Source of the DNA: Hyphomicrobiales bacterium
GTDB taxonomy: Bacteria; Pseudomonadota; Alphaproteobacteria; Rhizobiales; Beijerinckiaceae
Length of the DNA stretch: 64,000 nt
Direction of reading: 5' to 3'
NCBI GenBank assembly: GCA_900470775.1
Contig: UCBZ01000032.1
Span: 124,001 to 188,000 of the forward strand
The position numbers and the translations under genes were made by a program. Shown piece after piece: positions 16,076 to 63,811 of the stretch (positions are counted from its first letter, which is position 1; each line of letters begins with the position of its first letter). The notes beneath the pieces are model-generated. The model saw only the letters and a program-made list of their open reading frames with translations, ran no database searches and was not told the origin of the DNA.

Positions 16076-16110
16076 CAGATGCTCCTCCGAAACGTGCCCG
16101 CAGTTCTCAC

Positions 16111-16228
16111 AGCCCTCATCCTGAGGAGCCGCGAAGCGGCGTCTCGAAGGATGCTCCAGAAAGCTCCGGAGACCGCTGGAGCATCCTTCGAGACGCGGGC
16201 TTGCGCCCACTCCTCAGGATGAGGGCTG
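16111..16228. repeat. Family B interspersed palindrome, copy B1
   Basis: Starts AGCCCTCATCCTGAGGAGC and ends CTCCTCAGGATGAGGGCTG. Inner arms GAAGGATGCTCCAG and CTGGAGCATCCTTC pair. Small side hairpins are GCCGC-GAA-GCGGC and GGGC-TTGC-GCCC. Located between ATPase and permease genes of the operon. Confidence 0.88.
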
Positions 16229-19368: not shown

Positions 19369-19410
19369 CGTCAATCTCTTGTTTTCGTATGTACTTAGTC
19401 TGTCCTCAAC

Positions 19411-19523
19411 CCTCATCCTGAGGAGGCCCGCAGGGCCGTCTCGAAGGATGCTCCAGCCCGTACCAGAGACTTCTGGACCATCCTTCGAGACGCTGCTGAC
19501 GCAGCTCCTCAGGATGAGGGCTG
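19411..19523. repeat. Family B interspersed palindrome, copy B2
   Basis: Arms CCTCATCCTGAGGAGG and CTCCTCAGGATGAGGGCTGG. Side hairpins GGCCC-GCA-GGGCC and GCTGC-TGAC-GCAGC differ in sequence from other copies but keep the pairing. Located between SDR and first binding-protein genes. Confidence 0.88.
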
Positions 19524-28121: not shown

Positions 28122-28168
28122 GGCGCCGTTCCTGATCGAAGAACGCGCCTTTCGGCGCCCAACCTCCA

Positions 28169-28286
28169 GCCCTCATCCTGAGGAGCGCTCTGCAGGAGCG
28201 CGTCTCGAAGGATGATCCAGGAGGCTCTGGAGACCTCTGGAGCATCCTTCGAGACGCCGCTTCGCGGCTCCTCAGGATGAGGGCTA
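28169..28286. repeat. Family B interspersed palindrome, copy B3
   Basis: Arms AGCCCTCATCCTGAGGAGC and CTCCTCAGGATGAGGGCT. Side hairpins GCGCTC-TGCAG-GAGCGC and GCCGC-TTC-GCGGC. Lies between the XRE-cupin gene and glxB, in the leader of glxB. Confidence 0.88.
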
Positions 28287-49455: not shown

Positions 49456-49484
49456 ATGAGCAGCAAGACTGCTCGGTTTCACCA

Positions 49485-49604
49485 CAGCCCTCATCCTGAG
49501 GAGCCGCGTAGCGGCGTCTCGAAGGATGCTTCAGGAGGCTCCGGTGCAATCTGGAGCATCCTTCGAGACGCGGCCTTCGGCCGCTCCTCAGGATGAGGGC
49601 TGTG
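49485..49604. repeat. Family B interspersed palindrome, copy B4
   Basis: Arms CAGCCCTCATCCTGAGGAGC and CTCCTCAGGATGAGGGCTG. Side hairpins GCCGC-GTA-GCGGC and GCGGCC-TTC-GGCCGC. Lies between the convergent membrane-protein and dehydrogenase genes. Confidence 0.88.
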
Positions 49605-56742: not shown

Positions 56743-59700
56743 ATGCATCTTCTCCCGACCAGCGAGATCAGGCTCGACGACGGCGCGGACGCCGTCGATC
56801 TCGGCCTGCCGCCGGGGGACGTGCTGGTGCTGTCCTTCGCCGACAGCGACCTCTCGGCGCTGGCGGCGGCTGCCGCCGGTTGCGGGCTCTCCGTCCGCCT
56901 CGCCTCGCTGCGTCGTCTGAAGCACCCGCTCTCGATCGACTTCCTGATCGAGAAGACGGTGGCGAAGAGCCGCTTCGTGCTGGTGCGCTGCCTCGGCGGG
57001 CTGGATTACTGGCGCTACGGCATCGAGCAACTCGGCGATGTCTGCCGAGCGCAGGGCATCGCGCTCGCCGTGCTGCCGGGCGACGACCGGGTCGATGACC
57101 GGCTGGCGGAATACGGCACGGTGCCGGCAGGCTGTGCGCAGGCGATGCTGGGTTATTTCCAGGCAGGTGGCGGGGCCGAGAACATGCGGCGCCTCCTGGC
57201 GGTCGCGGCGGAGTATCTTGGCACGGCGCATCCCTCATCCGATCTTGCTCCCCTGCCCCTCCCGCCACTCTTCGCGCTCGGCGACGGCGCTGCCCCACTC
57301 CCTTGGCGCGAAGCGCTGGCAGCCCTGCCCGCCGACAAGCCCCTCGTCCCGATCCTCGTCTACCGCTCGGCCGTCAGCGCCGGCGACACGGCGATGGGTG
57401 AGGCGCTCGCCGCTGCCATCGCCGCTCGCTGCCATGCCCCGCTCATCCTCGCTTTGACCAGCCTGAAGGACCCCGCAGTCACGGCCGAGCTCGCCGCGCT
57501 GATCGCGACACGCCGGCCTTCGCTGATCGTCACGACCACGGCCTTCTCGGCCCGCGAAGGCTCCGATTTCGTACTCGACGCCGCCGATTGTCCCGTGCTG
57601 CAGGCCATGCCGGTCGGCAGCGCGCGAGAGACCTGGGCGGCGTCGCCGCGCGGGCTCTCGGCCGCCGACCTCGCCATGCAAATCGCGCTGCCCGAATTCG
57701 ACGGGCGGCTCGGCACGATTCCTGTCGCCTTCAAGGCTGACGTTCAGGATGCGGCGACCGGGCTGACGACCCGCCGGCTCGTGCCGGACGCGGACGGCGT
57801 TGCCGCGCTGGCCGATCTCACGAGCGGCTGGATCGGGCTGGCCGCCAAGCCGGCTGCGGAACGCAAGCTGGCGCTGGTGATGTCGGATTATCCGGCGCGT
57901 GGCGGCCGGGCCGGATTTGCCGTCGGGCTCGATACGCCTGCGAGCGTGGGCGCGATCGAGACGCTGCTGGCGGAGGCGGGGTACGATCTCAGCCCACGTC
58001 CTCACACCCTCAGCCCTCATCCTGAGGAGCCGCGCAGCGGCGTCTCGAAGGATGCTTCAGGAGGCTCGGAGCCCACTGGCGCATCCTTCGAGACGCAGGC
58101 TTCGCCTGCTCCTCAGGATGAGGGCTGGAGGTTGATGCAGGCGCTGACCACCGGCCCGGCCGACCTTGCCCAGCCGCTCGAAGCCTACCGCGCCTGGCTC
58201 GCGACCATCCCCGCCGAGGCGCGCGACACGCTCCTCGCCACGCATGGCGACCCGGTCTCCGATCACGCCTGCATCAACGGAATTTTCCGCTTCCGCGCCG
58301 TCCGCAACGGCCACCTGACCATCGCGCTGCAGCCGCCGCGCGATGCGACGCCGGACCGCAAGGCGCGATATCACGACCCCGACGCGCCGCCCGGCCATGC
58401 TTACCTCGCCTTCTACCGCGCCTTGCGCGAGACGGCCGGCATCGACGCACTGATCCATCTCGGCACCCATGGCACGACCGAATGGCTGCCCGGCAAGGCG
58501 GTGGCGCTGTCGGCCGCCTGCTGGCCGCGCCTCGTCACGCAGGGGCTGCCGGTGGTCTACCCTTATGTCGTCGACGATCCCGGCGAGGCCGCGCCGGCCA
58601 AGCGCCGGCTCTCAGCCATCACGCTTGGCCATCTGCCGCCTCCGCTGGCGCAGACCGGCGCGGCGGCCGAGACAGCGCTGCTGCGCGATCTCGTCGAGGA
58701 GTTCAGCCAGGCGCAGGTGCTCGATCCGCGCCGCGCCGACATCGTCGCGGCCGAAATCCGCGACCGGGCCGAGGCGAGCGGTCTGGCGCATTCCTGCGGA
58801 GTCACACCCGACCTGTCCATGAGCGAGGCGCTGACGCGGCTCGACGCGCATCTTTGCGACATCGCCGAACTGCCCTTCCGCGAGGGGCTGCATGTCTTCG
58901 GACGCTCCGAGGCCGATCCCGACTCGGCGTGGGCCGAGCGCGACGGGTTGCTGCGGGCTCTGGACGGACGCTTCGTGCCGCCCGGCCCGGCCGGCTCGCC
59001 GCATCGTGGCCGGCCCGATGTGCTGCCGACCGGCCGCAACCTCTCGACGCTCGATCCGCGCGCGATCCCGACGCGAGCGGCGGCGCGGCTGGGAGCGCTC
59101 GCGGCGCAGGCCGTGGTGGCGCGCCACCGGCAGGACCATGGCGAGGCGCCGCGCCGGATCGTGATGGATCTCTGGGCCTCACCGACGCTCCGTTCAGGCG
59201 GCGAGGATATCGCCCATGCACTGGCGCTGATGGGCGTCGTACCCCTCTGGGACCCGGCCTCAACGCGCGTGACGGGGTTTGCGATCACGCCGCAGCCGAA
59301 GCTCGACCATCCGCGTATCGACGTGACGGTGCGCATCTCGGGCGCCTTCCGCGACACCTTTCCGGCACAGGTCGGGCTGCTCGATGCCGCCGCGCGCGCC
59401 GTCGCCGCCCTCGACGAGCCCGAGGACTGCAACGAGCCCGCCGCCGCGCGTCGGCGCGGCGAGACGGGCGCGCGCATCTTCGGCGCCGCACCAGGGCGCT
59501 ACGGCGCAGCGATGGCAGACCGCGCGCTCGACGGCGACTGGGCGACGCGCGACGAACTCGGCGCGGCCTATCTCGCCGCCTCCAGCCATGCCTATGGCGG
59601 GCCGGAGGGGGCGGCCAGCGCCGATGCCGGCTTCGCGGCACGGATCAAGGCGGCGGACGCCTTCGTGCATGTCAGCGACACCGCCGGGCGCGACATCCTC

Positions 59701-60177
59701 GAGGCTTCGAGCGCCGCCGACGTCATCGGCGGGCTCGCCGCAGCAGCAAAAACACTGGGCGCAGACCCCGCGCTCTACAGCCTCGACAGTTCGAACCCCG
59801 AGGCGCCCAGGGCGCGCACCCTGGCGGAGGACATTGCCCGCATCGTCCATGGCCGGCTGGCGCATCCGCGCTGGATCGCATCCCACCTCGCCCATGGCTG
59901 GCGCGGCGCGGCCGAATTGGCGGAAGCGGTCGATACGCTGTTCGTCTTCGCCGCGAGCACGGATGCCGTCACCGACGGGCTGTTCGACGCGGTGTTCCAG
60001 GCCTGGTGTGCCGATGCAGCCGTCTGGACCGCGATCGAGGCCGCCAACGCGCCGGCCGCCGCCTCGATCCGGTCGCGTCTGGCGGAGGCGGCAAAGCGGG
60101 GCATCTGGACCAGCCGGCGCAATTCTGTCGGGACGTTTTTGGCCGGCGAGCGGGCGAGCCGCGAGGCCGCGGAATGA
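56743..60177 (+). CDS. cobN: Cobaltochelatase subunit CobN, with an in-frame palindrome insertion
   Basis: Large ATP-dependent chelatase subunit of 1144 residues that inserts cobalt into hydrogenobyrinic acid diamide together with CobS and CobT, which are not in the window. Motifs include MHLLPTSEIRLDDG, VLVRCLGGLDYWRYG, LIHLGTHGTTEWLPGK and NLSTLDPRAIPTRAA. Residues about 424-462 are encoded by a family B palindrome (58012-58128) inserted between EAGYDL and LMQALTTGP, where relatives have a short loop. The frame stays open. ATGA overlap with cobG. Confidence 0.96.
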   Translation: MHLLPTSEIRLDDGADAVDLGLPPGDVLVLSFADSDLSALAAAAAGCGLSVRLASLRRLKHPLSIDFLIEKTVAKSRFVLVRCLGGLDYWRYGIEQLGDVCRAQGIALAVLPGDDRVDDRLAEYGTVPAGCAQAMLGYFQAGGGAENMRRLLAVAAEYLGTAHPSSDLAPLPLPPLFALGDGAAPLPWREALAALPADKPLVPILVYRSAVSAGDTAMGEALAAAIAARCHAPLILALTSLKDPAVTAELAALIATRRPSLIVTTTAFSAREGSDFVLDAADCPVLQAMPVGSARETWAASPRGLSAADLAMQIALPEFDGRLGTIPVAFKADVQDAATGLTTRRLVPDADGVAALADLTSGWIGLAAKPAAERKLALVMSDYPARGGRAGFAVGLDTPASVGAIETLLAEAGYDLSPRPHTLSPHPEEPRSGVSKDASGGSEPTGASFETQASPAPQDEGWRLMQALTTGPADLAQPLEAYRAWLATIPAEARDTLLATHGDPVSDHACINGIFRFRAVRNGHLTIALQPPRDATPDRKARYHDPDAPPGHAYLAFYRALRETAGIDALIHLGTHGTTEWLPGKAVALSAACWPRLVTQGLPVVYPYVVDDPGEAAPAKRRLSAITLGHLPPPLAQTGAAAETALLRDLVEEFSQAQVLDPRRADIVAAEIRDRAEASGLAHSCGVTPDLSMSEALTRLDAHLCDIAELPFREGLHVFGRSEADPDSAWAERDGLLRALDGRFVPPGPAGSPHRGRPDVLPTGRNLSTLDPRAIPTRAAARLGALAAQAVVARHRQDHGEAPRRIVMDLWASPTLRSGGEDIAHALALMGVVPLWDPASTRVTGFAITPQPKLDHPRIDVTVRISGAFRDTFPAQVGLLDAAARAVAALDEPEDCNEPAAARRRGETGARIFGAAPGRYGAAMADRALDGDWATRDELGAAYLAASSHAYGGPEGAASADAGFAARIKAADAFVHVSDTAGRDILEASSAADVIGGLAAAAKTLGADPALYSLDSSNPEAPRARTLAEDIARIVHGRLAHPRWIASHLAHGWRGAAELAEAVDTLFVFAASTDAVTDGLFDAVFQAWCADAAVWTAIEAANAPAAASIRSRLAEAAKRGIWTSRRNSVGTFLAGERASREAAE
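58012..58128. repeat. Family B interspersed palindrome inside cobN, copy B5
   Basis: Arms CAGCCCTCATCCTGAGGAGC and CTCCTCAGGATGAGGGCTGG, side hairpins GCCGC-GCA-GCGGC and GCAGGC-TTC-GCCTGC. Read in the cobN frame it encodes a proline, serine and acid-rich segment (PHPEEPRSGVSKDAS onward) without a stop. Confidence 0.92.
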
Positions 60178-61463
60178 ACGCGCCTTCCCCCGATGCGCTG
60201 CGGCGCGGCTGGTGCCCGAGCACGCTGCGGCCGATGGAAACAGGCGATGGCTGGCTCGTGCGGCTGCATCCGCCGGAGGCGCTGCTAACCCCGGCGCAAC
60301 TCCGGCGCATCGCGGCGCTGGCGGGCGAACACGGCAACGGGCTGATCGAGATCTCGGCGCGCGGCAACATGCAATTGCGCGGGGTGACGGCGCAAACGCA
60401 TCCGGCGCTGGTCGAGACGCTGCTGGCGGAGCGATTGGTCGACGAGCATGACGGCGACGGCCCGCAGAGGCTGACGCTGGTCTCGCCGCTGGCCAGCGCA
60501 GCCAGCGACATGATCGATACCGGTGAGCTTGCGGCAGAGGTCGAGGCCCGTGCGCGGATGATCGCTGGCCTGCCTGCCAAGTTCTGTATCGTCGTCGACG
60601 GCGGCGTGGCTCAGTCTCTCGACGGTTTCGCCTGCGATCTGCGTCTCGTGGCAACCGCGCCCGGGATGGTCGCGCTGGGCTTGGCAGACCGCCTGTGGTT
60701 TGCGCCGATTTCGGTCGGGCGGTCTGGCGATGTCGTCATGGCTCTGCTCACCCGCTTCGCCGCGTTGCGAGCGGCCGCGCCCGATGGGATCCGCCGGATG
60801 CGCGACCTGATGCCGGACGTGCTCGCGGCACTCTGCGACCTGCCGCCAGCCGCACCACCAGCGTCGCGCCCCGCGCCCCAACGCGCCGGACTGTTCGCGC
60901 TCGACGCAGGCGACTTCGCGGCGCTGGTTGGACTGCCCTTCGGCCGCGCCGATGCCGTGACGCTCGATCGGATCGGGGCCGCCGCCAAAGCACACAGTTG
61001 CGCCGATATCCGGCTGTCGCCCTGGCGCGGGATCGCCTTTCGCGGGATGGCGGAGGTCGATGCGGCAGGCCTCCTCGCCTTCGCCGAAGCGCTCGGACTG
61101 ATCGTTGGCGACGACGATCCGCGCCTTTCGGTGCAGGCCTGCGCGGGCGCGCCCGCCTGCCTGCGGGCCGAAACCCCGGCCATGGCCGATGCCGCGCAAC
61201 TGGCCGGGGCCATTGCGCCGCTGCTGGCCGATGGACTGACGCTGCATGTCTCGGGCTGCGTCAAATCCTGCGCGCAACCCGGTGCTTCGGACCTGACGCT
61301 GGTCGGTCGCGAGGGACGCTATGGCGTCGTCATCGGCGGGACAGCGCGGGACAGCGCCATCGCCGAGCTTGACCTTTCCGGGATCATGACGCGATTGCAG
61401 CCCGGACAGGAGATTCACGCCCGCCTCATTGCGGCGGGCCGGCTTGCGGGACCACGGGTTTGA
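60174..61463 (+). CDS. cobG: Precorrin-3B synthase CobG
   Basis: Oxygen-dependent monooxygenase of 429 residues of the nitrite/sulphite-reductase fold, specific to the aerobic cobalamin route. It has [12 protein letters not shown], the duplicated LSPWRGIAF segment and the iron-sulphur cysteines in [14 protein letters not shown] and [20 protein letters not shown]. Start ATG 60174 overlaps the cobN stop. It marks the organism as making cobalamin by the aerobic path. Confidence 0.95.
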
Positions 61464-62840: not shown

Positions 62841-63811
62841 GCAACGGTTTCTCACATTCTGATTCGTCTAACCCTCCGCCGTCATCCTGGGCGACCGAAG
62901 ATCGTCCCGGGATCCATCATAAGGCGCTGACGAGCCCTGTGATGGATCCCGGCGCTCCGCTTCGCTCCGGCCAGGATGACGGCGCAGAAGTGGAGAGGAC
63001 AGAGGAAAAGAAGGACTCGGAAGCAGGCTCCCTCACCGTCGTGGGCCTCGGCCCCGGCGAGGCGCATTGGCTCACGCCGGCTGCCCAGGCGGCGATCGAG
63101 GCTGCGAGCGACCTTGTGGGTTACGGCCCCTATCTCGACCGCGTCGCCCCGCGCGAAGGCCAGACGAAACACGCCTCAGACAACCGCGTCGAGATCGACC
63201 GGGCCGGCCATGCGCTGCGGTTGGCGGCGGCGGGCAGGACCGTCGCGGTCGTCTCGGGCGGCGACCCCGGCGTGTTTGCCATGGCGGCCGCCGTGTTCGA
63301 GGCGCTGGAGGCCGGCAACCCGGCCTGGCTGGCGCTGCCGATCACGGTCGAGCCCGGCATCACCGCGATGCTGGCCTCGGCGGCCAAGGCCGGCGCGCCG
63401 CTCGGTGGGGATTTCTGCGCGATTTCGCTGTCGGATAATCTCAAGCCCTGGGAGGTCGTGACCGCACGGCTCGAGGCGGTTCTGAAGGCCGATTTCGTGA
63501 TCTGCCTCTACAACCCGATCTCGAAGGCGCGGCCCTGGCAGCTGCGCGAAGCGCTGGCGCTGGCCGCCCGCATCCGCGCAGCCGAGACGCCGGTGATCTT
63601 CGCGCGCGCCGTCGGGCGGGCCGATGAGGGCTTGCGCATCCTGACGCTGGCTGAGGCGGTCGAGACGGCTGAATCCGCCGACATGGCGACGCTGGTGACG
63701 ATCGGCGCATCGAGCACGCGGCTGATCGCGCGTCCGGGCGATCAGCCTTGGGTCTACACGCCGCGCTCGGTGACGAAGAGCCCTTCCGCCACCAGCCAGG
63801 GCAGGACCTGA
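62837..63811 (+). CDS. cobJ: Precorrin-3B C17-methyltransferase CobJ, with palindrome-derived N-terminus
   Basis: SAM-dependent methyltransferase that contracts the corrin ring. The conserved body begins SLTVVGLGPGEAHWLTPAA, with VVSGGDPGVFAMAAAV, EPGITAMLASAAKAGAPLG and FVICLYNPISKARPWQ. From GTG 62837 (GTGA overlap with cobI) the protein has 324 residues, of which about 14-49 are encoded by palindrome A6. The alternative ATG 62942 lies inside the repeat. No start codon with a ribosome site is seen between the repeat and the conserved body. Confidence 0.9.
   Translation: MSNGFSHSDSSNPPPSSWATEDRPGIHHKALTSPVMDPGAPLRSGQDDGAEVERTEEKKDSEAGSLTVVGLGPGEAHWLTPAAQAAIEAASDLVGYGPYLDRVAPREGQTKHASDNRVEIDRAGHALRLAAAGRTVAVVSGGDPGVFAMAAAVFEALEAGNPAWLALPITVEPGITAMLASAAKAGAPLGGDFCAISLSDNLKPWEVVTARLEAVLKADFVICLYNPISKARPWQLREALALAARIRAAETPVIFARAVGRADEGLRILTLAEAVETAESADMATLVTIGASSTRLIARPGDQPWVYTPRSVTKSPSATSQGRT
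62878..62984. repeat. Family A interspersed palindrome at the start of cobJ, copy A6
   Basis: Arms CCGCCGTCATCCTGG and CCAGGATGACGGCG, inner GGATCCATCATAA and GTGATGGATCCCGG. It is open in the cobJ frame, giving RPGIHHKAL and MDPGAPLRSG, a translation also latent in other A copies. Confidence 0.9.

Follow-up and report, generated by a model that had tools for sequence, protein, structure and literature searches.

Unrelated families of palindromic repeats occupy the same loops of the cobaltochelatase subunit CobN in sister species of Bosea, and these in-frame inserts change with little constraint at the protein level. One of them, an element of the family designated B here, lies in the cobN gene of the window (the whole 64,000-nucleotide stretch that was analyzed; Table 1). 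We consider it probable that a selfish, REP-like family B element landed in a surface loop of CobN, where it would add about 39 disordered residues while affecting the enzyme little, and that the loop could then have acted as a landing pad for other elements. Palindromes of this kind are already known, as the RPEs of Rickettsia and as intragenic REPs; what is new is that unrelated families reuse sites repeatedly and in a lineage-specific manner.

Table 1. Features of the window discussed in the text (positions of the 64,000-nucleotide stretch)
Feature	Position	Strand	Remarks
Family B copy	16108..16228	+	Outside any long spanning frame
Family B copy	19405..19522	+	Between two minus-strand frames
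Family B copy	28168..28285 (start about 28168)	+	Outside any long spanning frame
Family B copy	49483..49602	+	Outside any long spanning frame
cobN, cobaltochelatase subunit, 1144 aa	56743..60177	+	Open through the repeat; NCBIfam, Pfam, Foldseek
Site 1, residues ~44-50	56872..56892	+	Empty in window
Site 2, residues ~158-175	57214..57267	+	Empty in window
Site 3 loop segment, residues ~417-463	57991..58131	+	Alignment of 104 CobN; AF2
Family B palindromic element, 117 nt	58012..58128	+	In frame, codons 424-462; REP-like head-to-head dimer
Site 4, C-terminus	60142..60174	+	Empty in window

The product of the window cobN matches the NCBIfam CobN family NF008973 with a score above the cut-off, and its top Foldseek match is the CobN structure 7c6o. 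The first-pass annotation had described a full-length family B element inside the cobN frame that adds about 39 residues, and this description is correct: the frame crosses the repeat with neither stop nor frameshift, and the loop at site 3 has 63 residues, most of the segment being extra relative to the 24 residues found in 47 of 48 CobN from other genera (25 in the remaining one). Folded as single-stranded DNA, the repeat gives a near-perfect hairpin (z −11.3); as RNA, it reaches −99.5 kcal/mol (z −11.9). In the AF2 model of the protein (mean pLDDT 82.6, pTM 0.81), the segment that the annotation had proposed to map falls in a low-confidence loop (residues 421 to 457, pLDDT below 50) between helices 399 to 411 and 460 to 470, and the insert is thus modeled as disordered. 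The solved CobN 9uk9 aligns by sequence to residues 1 to 420 and 479 to 722, with no alignment between them.

CobN was searched for in 61 genomes of the genus, and 50 CobN loci were aligned first; a wider alignment contains 104 distinct CobN, including the proteins of 80 named loci, which show the genus to be Bosea and extend the set to Phreatobacter, Chelatococcus, Microvirga, Methylobacterium, and a few more genera. Three loci (L097, L102, and L110) match L044, L015, and L054, apparently from the same organisms, and were kept off the tree but counted among the 56 Bosea rows for loop length, while L118 was counted as Bosea from its tree position. Inserts are found at four places in Bosea CobN, namely, around residues 44 and 160, at 420 to 460, and at the C terminus (sites 1 to 4). 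By DNA, site 3 holds families A, B, C, and F in different Bosea species, site 1 holds E, F, and G, site 2 holds D (four with a nested family H), and site 4 holds G. The family references do not match one another, except for A and its variant A1, which makes gene conversion between families an unlikely cause of the switches. A literature search, with subscription journals mostly outside its coverage, showed no report of such repeats in CobN.

At least one insert or remnant is present in 44 of the 53 Bosea rows of the tree. Site 3 is filled in 37 of them, seven as short arm-only remnants; site 2 is filled in 24 of 51 rows with data (the family D fragment of G052 was scored as empty in this family-level count), site 1 in 13 of 48 with data, and site 4 in 2 of 53. 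Among the 48 rows that cover all four sites, nine have three inserts and seven have none. The family B segment is far from being a conserved part of CobN, since it occupies site 3 in 6 of 53 Bosea rows, one of them a remnant, and is absent from this position in all 48 rows of other genera. The clean empty site that the first-pass annotation had proposed to look for in sister genomes is mostly lacking: other repeat families fill site 3 in 31 of the 53 rows, and the 16 empty loops exceed the 24 residues of other genera by 1 to 13.

On a CobN tree from which the insert columns were excluded, the minimum numbers of state changes are 11, 11, 22, and 2 for sites 1 to 4, 46 in total, counts that are approximate because the tree was made quickly and 20 of its 53 inner branches have less than 80% support. 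Supported sisters carry unlike families at site 3 (G047 with B and G049 with A, G037 with B and G052 with A, G010 with B and G024 with F). Both orientations are seen for families C, D, and F and more than one frame for families D and A, evidence in favor of independent insertions. The cobN frame is preserved in nearly all genomes; in the MAG G059, a TAG occurs in frame at a place outside the inserts, and in G028 a frameshift inside a composite site 1 insert leads to a stop at codon 135.

The loops differ between lineages in how constant their length is. Site 3 ranges from 25 to 88 residues in 56 Bosea rows and is never 24. Site 2 has 29 to 32 residues in 48 non-Bosea rows and 27 to 114 in 54 Bosea rows, many of the latter being 30 to 31. 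Site 1 has 16 to 30 residues in the non-Bosea rows with data and 15 to 72 in 49 Bosea rows, of which 33 have 15 to 18, like other genera. Two further sites are used outside Bosea. The loop at residue 183 has 20 to 21 residues in 54 Bosea rows, 20 in five Phreatobacter rows, 16 to 32 in Methylobacterium, and 8 to 12 in four other rows, and it reaches up to 103 in six Microvirga rows and 69 in the single Chelatococcus row. The loop at residue 522 has 20 residues in 71 of 72 rows outside Methylobacterium and Methylorubrum (17 in the other one) and 20 to 94 in 32 rows of these two genera. Each lineage is thus shown to use its own CobN loops: sites 1 to 3 in Bosea, 183 in Microvirga and Chelatococcus, and 522 in Methylobacterium. 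Family B itself is present at other CobN sites in Microvirga (L121, L139, and L150) and Methylobacterium (L134 and L153), and family C is present at another site in one locus outside Bosea (L160); many Methylobacterium inserts match none of the family references.

These lengths bear on how the sites came to be reused. In the scheme that we favor, a family B palindrome would insert into a surface loop of CobN without breaking the reading frame, and its translation would add a disordered stretch of about 39 residues that leaves the enzyme little affected. This first insertion would turn the loop into a neutral spacer, in which later elements could nest, take each other's place, or become shorter through internal deletions. 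The insert peptide is presumably made and is probably harmless or near-neutral, and the distribution of the elements suggests that they are mobile. The proposed order of events is supported by site 3, where no sampled Bosea genome has gone back to the 24-residue loop of other genera, and less so by sites 1 and 2, where the argument is weaker because many empty Bosea loops are of ordinary length; those two sites are explained equally well by insertion into loops that had held no element before or by clean loss. In a more specific form, which we put forward tentatively and rate somewhat short of probable, the first palindrome in a length-invariant loop would create a neutral spacer where later unrelated palindromes preferentially survive, in the manner of a ratchet that locks lineages by chance onto particular sites.

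Structural tolerance alone might account for the same pattern: the loops would simply accept inserts, and independent insertions would pile up there by selection, with no need for a landing pad. In the AF2 model, the sites used all lie between secondary-structure elements (sites 1, 2, 183, and 522, in addition to site 3) or at the C-terminal end (site 4), and intragenic REPs are described as possibly neutral in flexible linkers or loops (Di Nocera et al., PMC3733652). Many Bosea rows have empty loops of ordinary length at sites 1 and 2, and loop length varies in Methylobacterium at site 1 (19 to 30 residues) and at site 183 (16 to 32), where no such repeats were recognized. However, the fold is common to all of these proteins, yet the loops used differ by lineage, and sites 2, 3, and 522 are nearly invariant in length outside the lineage that uses them. 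We regard tolerance by itself as a rather unlikely explanation, although one to be taken seriously.

Nested and partial elements are present, as would be expected if the inserts turn over within a landing pad. At site 2, family H interrupts one hairpin of family D in G001 and both hairpins in G008, G019, and G032, the arrangement in G008 and G032 being a symmetric double nesting. In these last two genomes, the 68-nt two-hairpin H element is in frame in both D hairpins (L034:1231-1524 in G008 and L052:1482-1772 in G032). At site 1, G003 has half of a family E element followed by G, and G028 (L056) has the left arm of E, then G, and then the right arm of E, the last recognized by its peptide. 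Family C lies beside a weak family B match in G013, and families B and G are found together in Microvirga L139 and L150. Collapsed elements whose outer arms remain in frame are seen in, among others, G016, G042, G060, G026, and G035. At site 3, G031 and G009 (L010 and L011) share an identical 93-nt segment, with flanks that are 72 to 100% identical per 60 nt, which suggests a recent shared replacement or transfer. The empty sites of the G008 clade contain short scar-like stretches that resemble the end of family C; these can be read as scars or as pre-insertion sites that resemble the element end.

Copies of family B are numerous in the genome of the window. A search of both strands gave 80 match rows at about 40 places, these being the 40 scored out of 134 candidates, so that the copy number is at least 40. 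Four further copies in the window match the cobN repeat, in agreement with the first-pass annotation, which had called them intergenic: those at 16108, 28168, and 49483 have no frame that reaches 60 residues past them on both sides, and the plus-strand frame across the copy at 19405 has no Pfam match. Three long frames across repeat copies in the window, all without a Pfam match, were taken as spurious. Among 39 copies from the same genome with flanks, six lie in a frame that extends at least 40 residues on both sides. The recognizable host genes are cobN and a gene for a dual ABC ATPase; the other four frames have no Pfam match and were considered spurious. In the ABC transporter gene (L083:686-2497), the family B element is in frame in the linker between the two ATPase domains.

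The queries for families B, C, and D were taken from cobN, so that cobN is present in each set of copies by construction. In a set of 26 family C loci drawn from five Bosea genomes, eight are crossed by a frame that extends 60 residues or more on each side; one of these is the cobN query place, and the seven that were scanned have no Pfam match and were rejected as spurious (a further frame, in L202, lies outside that scan). Among 29 family D match loci, not all of which are distinct copies, five are crossed by such a frame: the cobN query place, a gene similar to those for penicillin-binding proteins, a TusA frame in which the repeat sits ahead of the domain, and two others rejected as spurious for lack of a Pfam match. 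The penicillin-binding-protein-like gene (L189:3-3050, in G010) spans its family D match in frame.

The families found at site 3 may also be related to their abundance in the genome. In loose, first-look counts of candidates, family C has a median of 167 in the seven genomes with C at site 3 versus 52 in 43 others (one-sided P = 1.8e-4, with genomes treated as unrelated), and family B has 101 in six genomes versus 78 in 44, a weak difference (P = 0.09, with genomes again treated as unrelated).

Other genes are much less affected. UvrA, chosen as a control because it is named as a REP target elsewhere (PMC3733652), has no insert of 30 or more residues in 30 loci, a few of them partial, and differs by 9 to 27 residues near one end in 8 of the 30; in G011 it has 19 extra residues in two pieces. 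Inserts of this size are likewise absent from CarB in 30 loci, a few of them partial. Within the cob genes, the cobW alignment of 48 loci, of which many are partial, has no gap longer than 13 residues, and three loci have an N-terminal piece in another frame. By contrast, cobG (window positions 60174 to 61463) has an insertion site after VSPLA that is filled in 9 of 49 Bosea loci and empty in the window, with inserts that include B-, C-, and F-like peptides, and one more locus has a family-B-like insert near the N terminus. On the results for cobW and cobG, the whole cob operon was rejected as a general hot spot; the effect is not limited to cobN, yet it is far from general. A family A palindrome (window positions 62877 to 62987) lies directly before the tetrapyrrole methylase domain of a cobJ-like gene, the start of which is uncertain because the open frame runs through the palindrome.

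By its sequence, the window element is best called REP-like rather than a member of the CGTC REPs. It has CCTC on both arms, one of the variants (TGTC or CCTC) accepted for the CGTC tag, and consists of two inverted units with the tags outermost, as in a head-to-head dimer. However, its stem starts with AT but is uninterrupted for just 5 bp, where CGTC REPs have 8 to 9, and its loops are 25 and 27 nt long instead of 4 to 5, although odd REP loops are described for a few species (PMC3733652). The two arms have the tails GCTTCA and GCGCCA (CCA in CGTC REPs), and the ends (AGCCCTCATCC / GGATGAGGGCT) lack the GTAG tag. Family E at site 1 has the CGTC tag, a 9-bp AT stem, a 5-nt loop, the CCA tail, and the dimer structure, on both arms in six of eight inserts; the exceptions are L029, in which one arm fits, and L023, in which the stems are shorter and the loops longer. 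A Y1_Tnp (RAYT) domain is present in 6 of 61 genomes of the genus and has no match in the genome of the window, for which mobilization by a RAYT was accordingly rejected. A consistent target site duplication, the classical trait of MITEs, was not seen by eye when filled and empty site 3 sequences were compared.

CGTC and GTAG REPs are described as short, mostly intergenic palindromes, mostly in head-to-head dimers; those with the CGTC tag are common in alphaproteobacteria, have no tie to transposases in that description, and intragenic copies, sometimes in frame, are listed for several free-living bacteria (Di Nocera et al. 2013, PMC3733652). As short palindromes that at times lie in frame in genes, the Bosea elements resemble these intragenic REPs as described there. 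They differ in being concentrated in several loops of one metabolic gene in most sampled Bosea species, in belonging to several unrelated families with turnover and nesting, and in that related genera use other loops; the CGTC units also have longer stems and shorter loops than the window element. Site reuse has a small precedent in the same source, in which two Xanthomonas species, as a single case, carry unlike REPs at nearly the same place in recB. RPEs are palindromes of 105 to 146 bp that are tolerated in frame in conserved proteins of Rickettsia (Ogata et al., PMC2229807), and a guanylate kinase with such an insert is active (Abergel 2006, as cited in PMC2229807). Family B in cobN is likewise a palindrome in frame inside a conserved gene. 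The likeness to Rickettsia drawn in the first-pass annotation is thus apt as far as descriptions, rather than aligned sequences, can be compared, but RPEs are not the sole precedent, given the intragenic REPs, and Bosea is free-living and GC-rich and has the same sites reused by several families. Br-REP1 and Br-REP2 are palindromic repeats of Bradyrhizobium, a related alphaproteobacterial genus, and their abundance differs strongly between species (PMC5082802). Compared by description rather than by alignment, they differ from the Bosea elements in location, being described in 3′ untranslated and intergenic regions (PMC5082802).

If a putative transposase preferred palindromes or a sequence motif, the hot spots would reflect targeting at the DNA level rather than selection. 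The nested H elements that interrupt family D hairpins and the family-C-end-like sequence in the empty sites of the G008 clade are consistent with this. Nevertheless, no target motif shared across sites and families was apparent by eye, site 3 shows no consistent target duplication, and the real hosts of the 39 family B copies seem to be just cobN and one ABC transporter gene. Such targeting appears improbable to us as the main cause.

A role for the inserts themselves, for example, as a peptide module of CobN or as an mRNA hairpin that slows translation, would require that they be kept by selection. The hairpin signal is strong in most inserts: among those with at least 20 extra residues, each compared with 60 dinucleotide shuffles, z is below −3 for 10 of 13 at site 1, 22 of 22 at site 2, 28 of 31 at site 3 (including L102), none of two at site 4, four of five at site 183, and 8 of 14 at site 522, versus none of 60 control windows of cobN. 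The other six inserts at site 522, all from Methylobacterium, gave no significant value; these long inserts (L133, L141, L149, L154, L157, and L161) may be decayed repeats or inserts of another kind. The very stable RNA hairpin within the coding sequence and the presence of an insert or remnant in most Bosea rows could be taken as signs of function. The ratio omega was estimated from few sequences with the inserts assumed to be orthologous, and it ranges from 0.42 to 1.28 in six groups of inserts (no value was obtained for a seventh group, which consists of two near-identical C inserts), compared with 0.11 to 0.19 for the rest of cobN. The values at sites 1 and 2, 0.42 to 0.53, are below 1, as they would be for peptides under some selection. 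Overall, the enzyme is under clear purifying selection and the inserts are under little. Moreover, unrelated peptides from differing families and frames replace one another, and seven rows have no insert at any of the four sites. Retention for function is thus very improbable.

An error of assembly or annotation has a negligible probability: the genome of the window is a draft of 96 contigs, but the same phenomenon is present in many assemblies, including those in one or two contigs (G009, G010, G012, and G032), so that the genus-wide pattern is not an assembly error, even if the named records, which encode 26 of the same proteins, probably represent the same genomes and are not independent.

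The proposal of the first-pass annotation that a multicopy palindrome is tolerated as an in-frame protein insert is supported, and Bosea CobN can be viewed as a natural record of the tolerance of selfish DNA inside proteins. In-frame palindromes have been known since their discovery in Rickettsia, and the question is whether they reflect random arrival, targeting, or tolerance. The CobN of Bosea and its relatives provides at least 46 state changes in one conserved enzyme, and the occurrence of empty, filled, nested, and collapsed sites in closely related species makes that question testable by comparison and by simple swaps. The case also shows how protein loops could become long and disordered without selection for the peptide. 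If the ratchet is true, each lineage would carry its own serially overwritten sites in the same enzyme.
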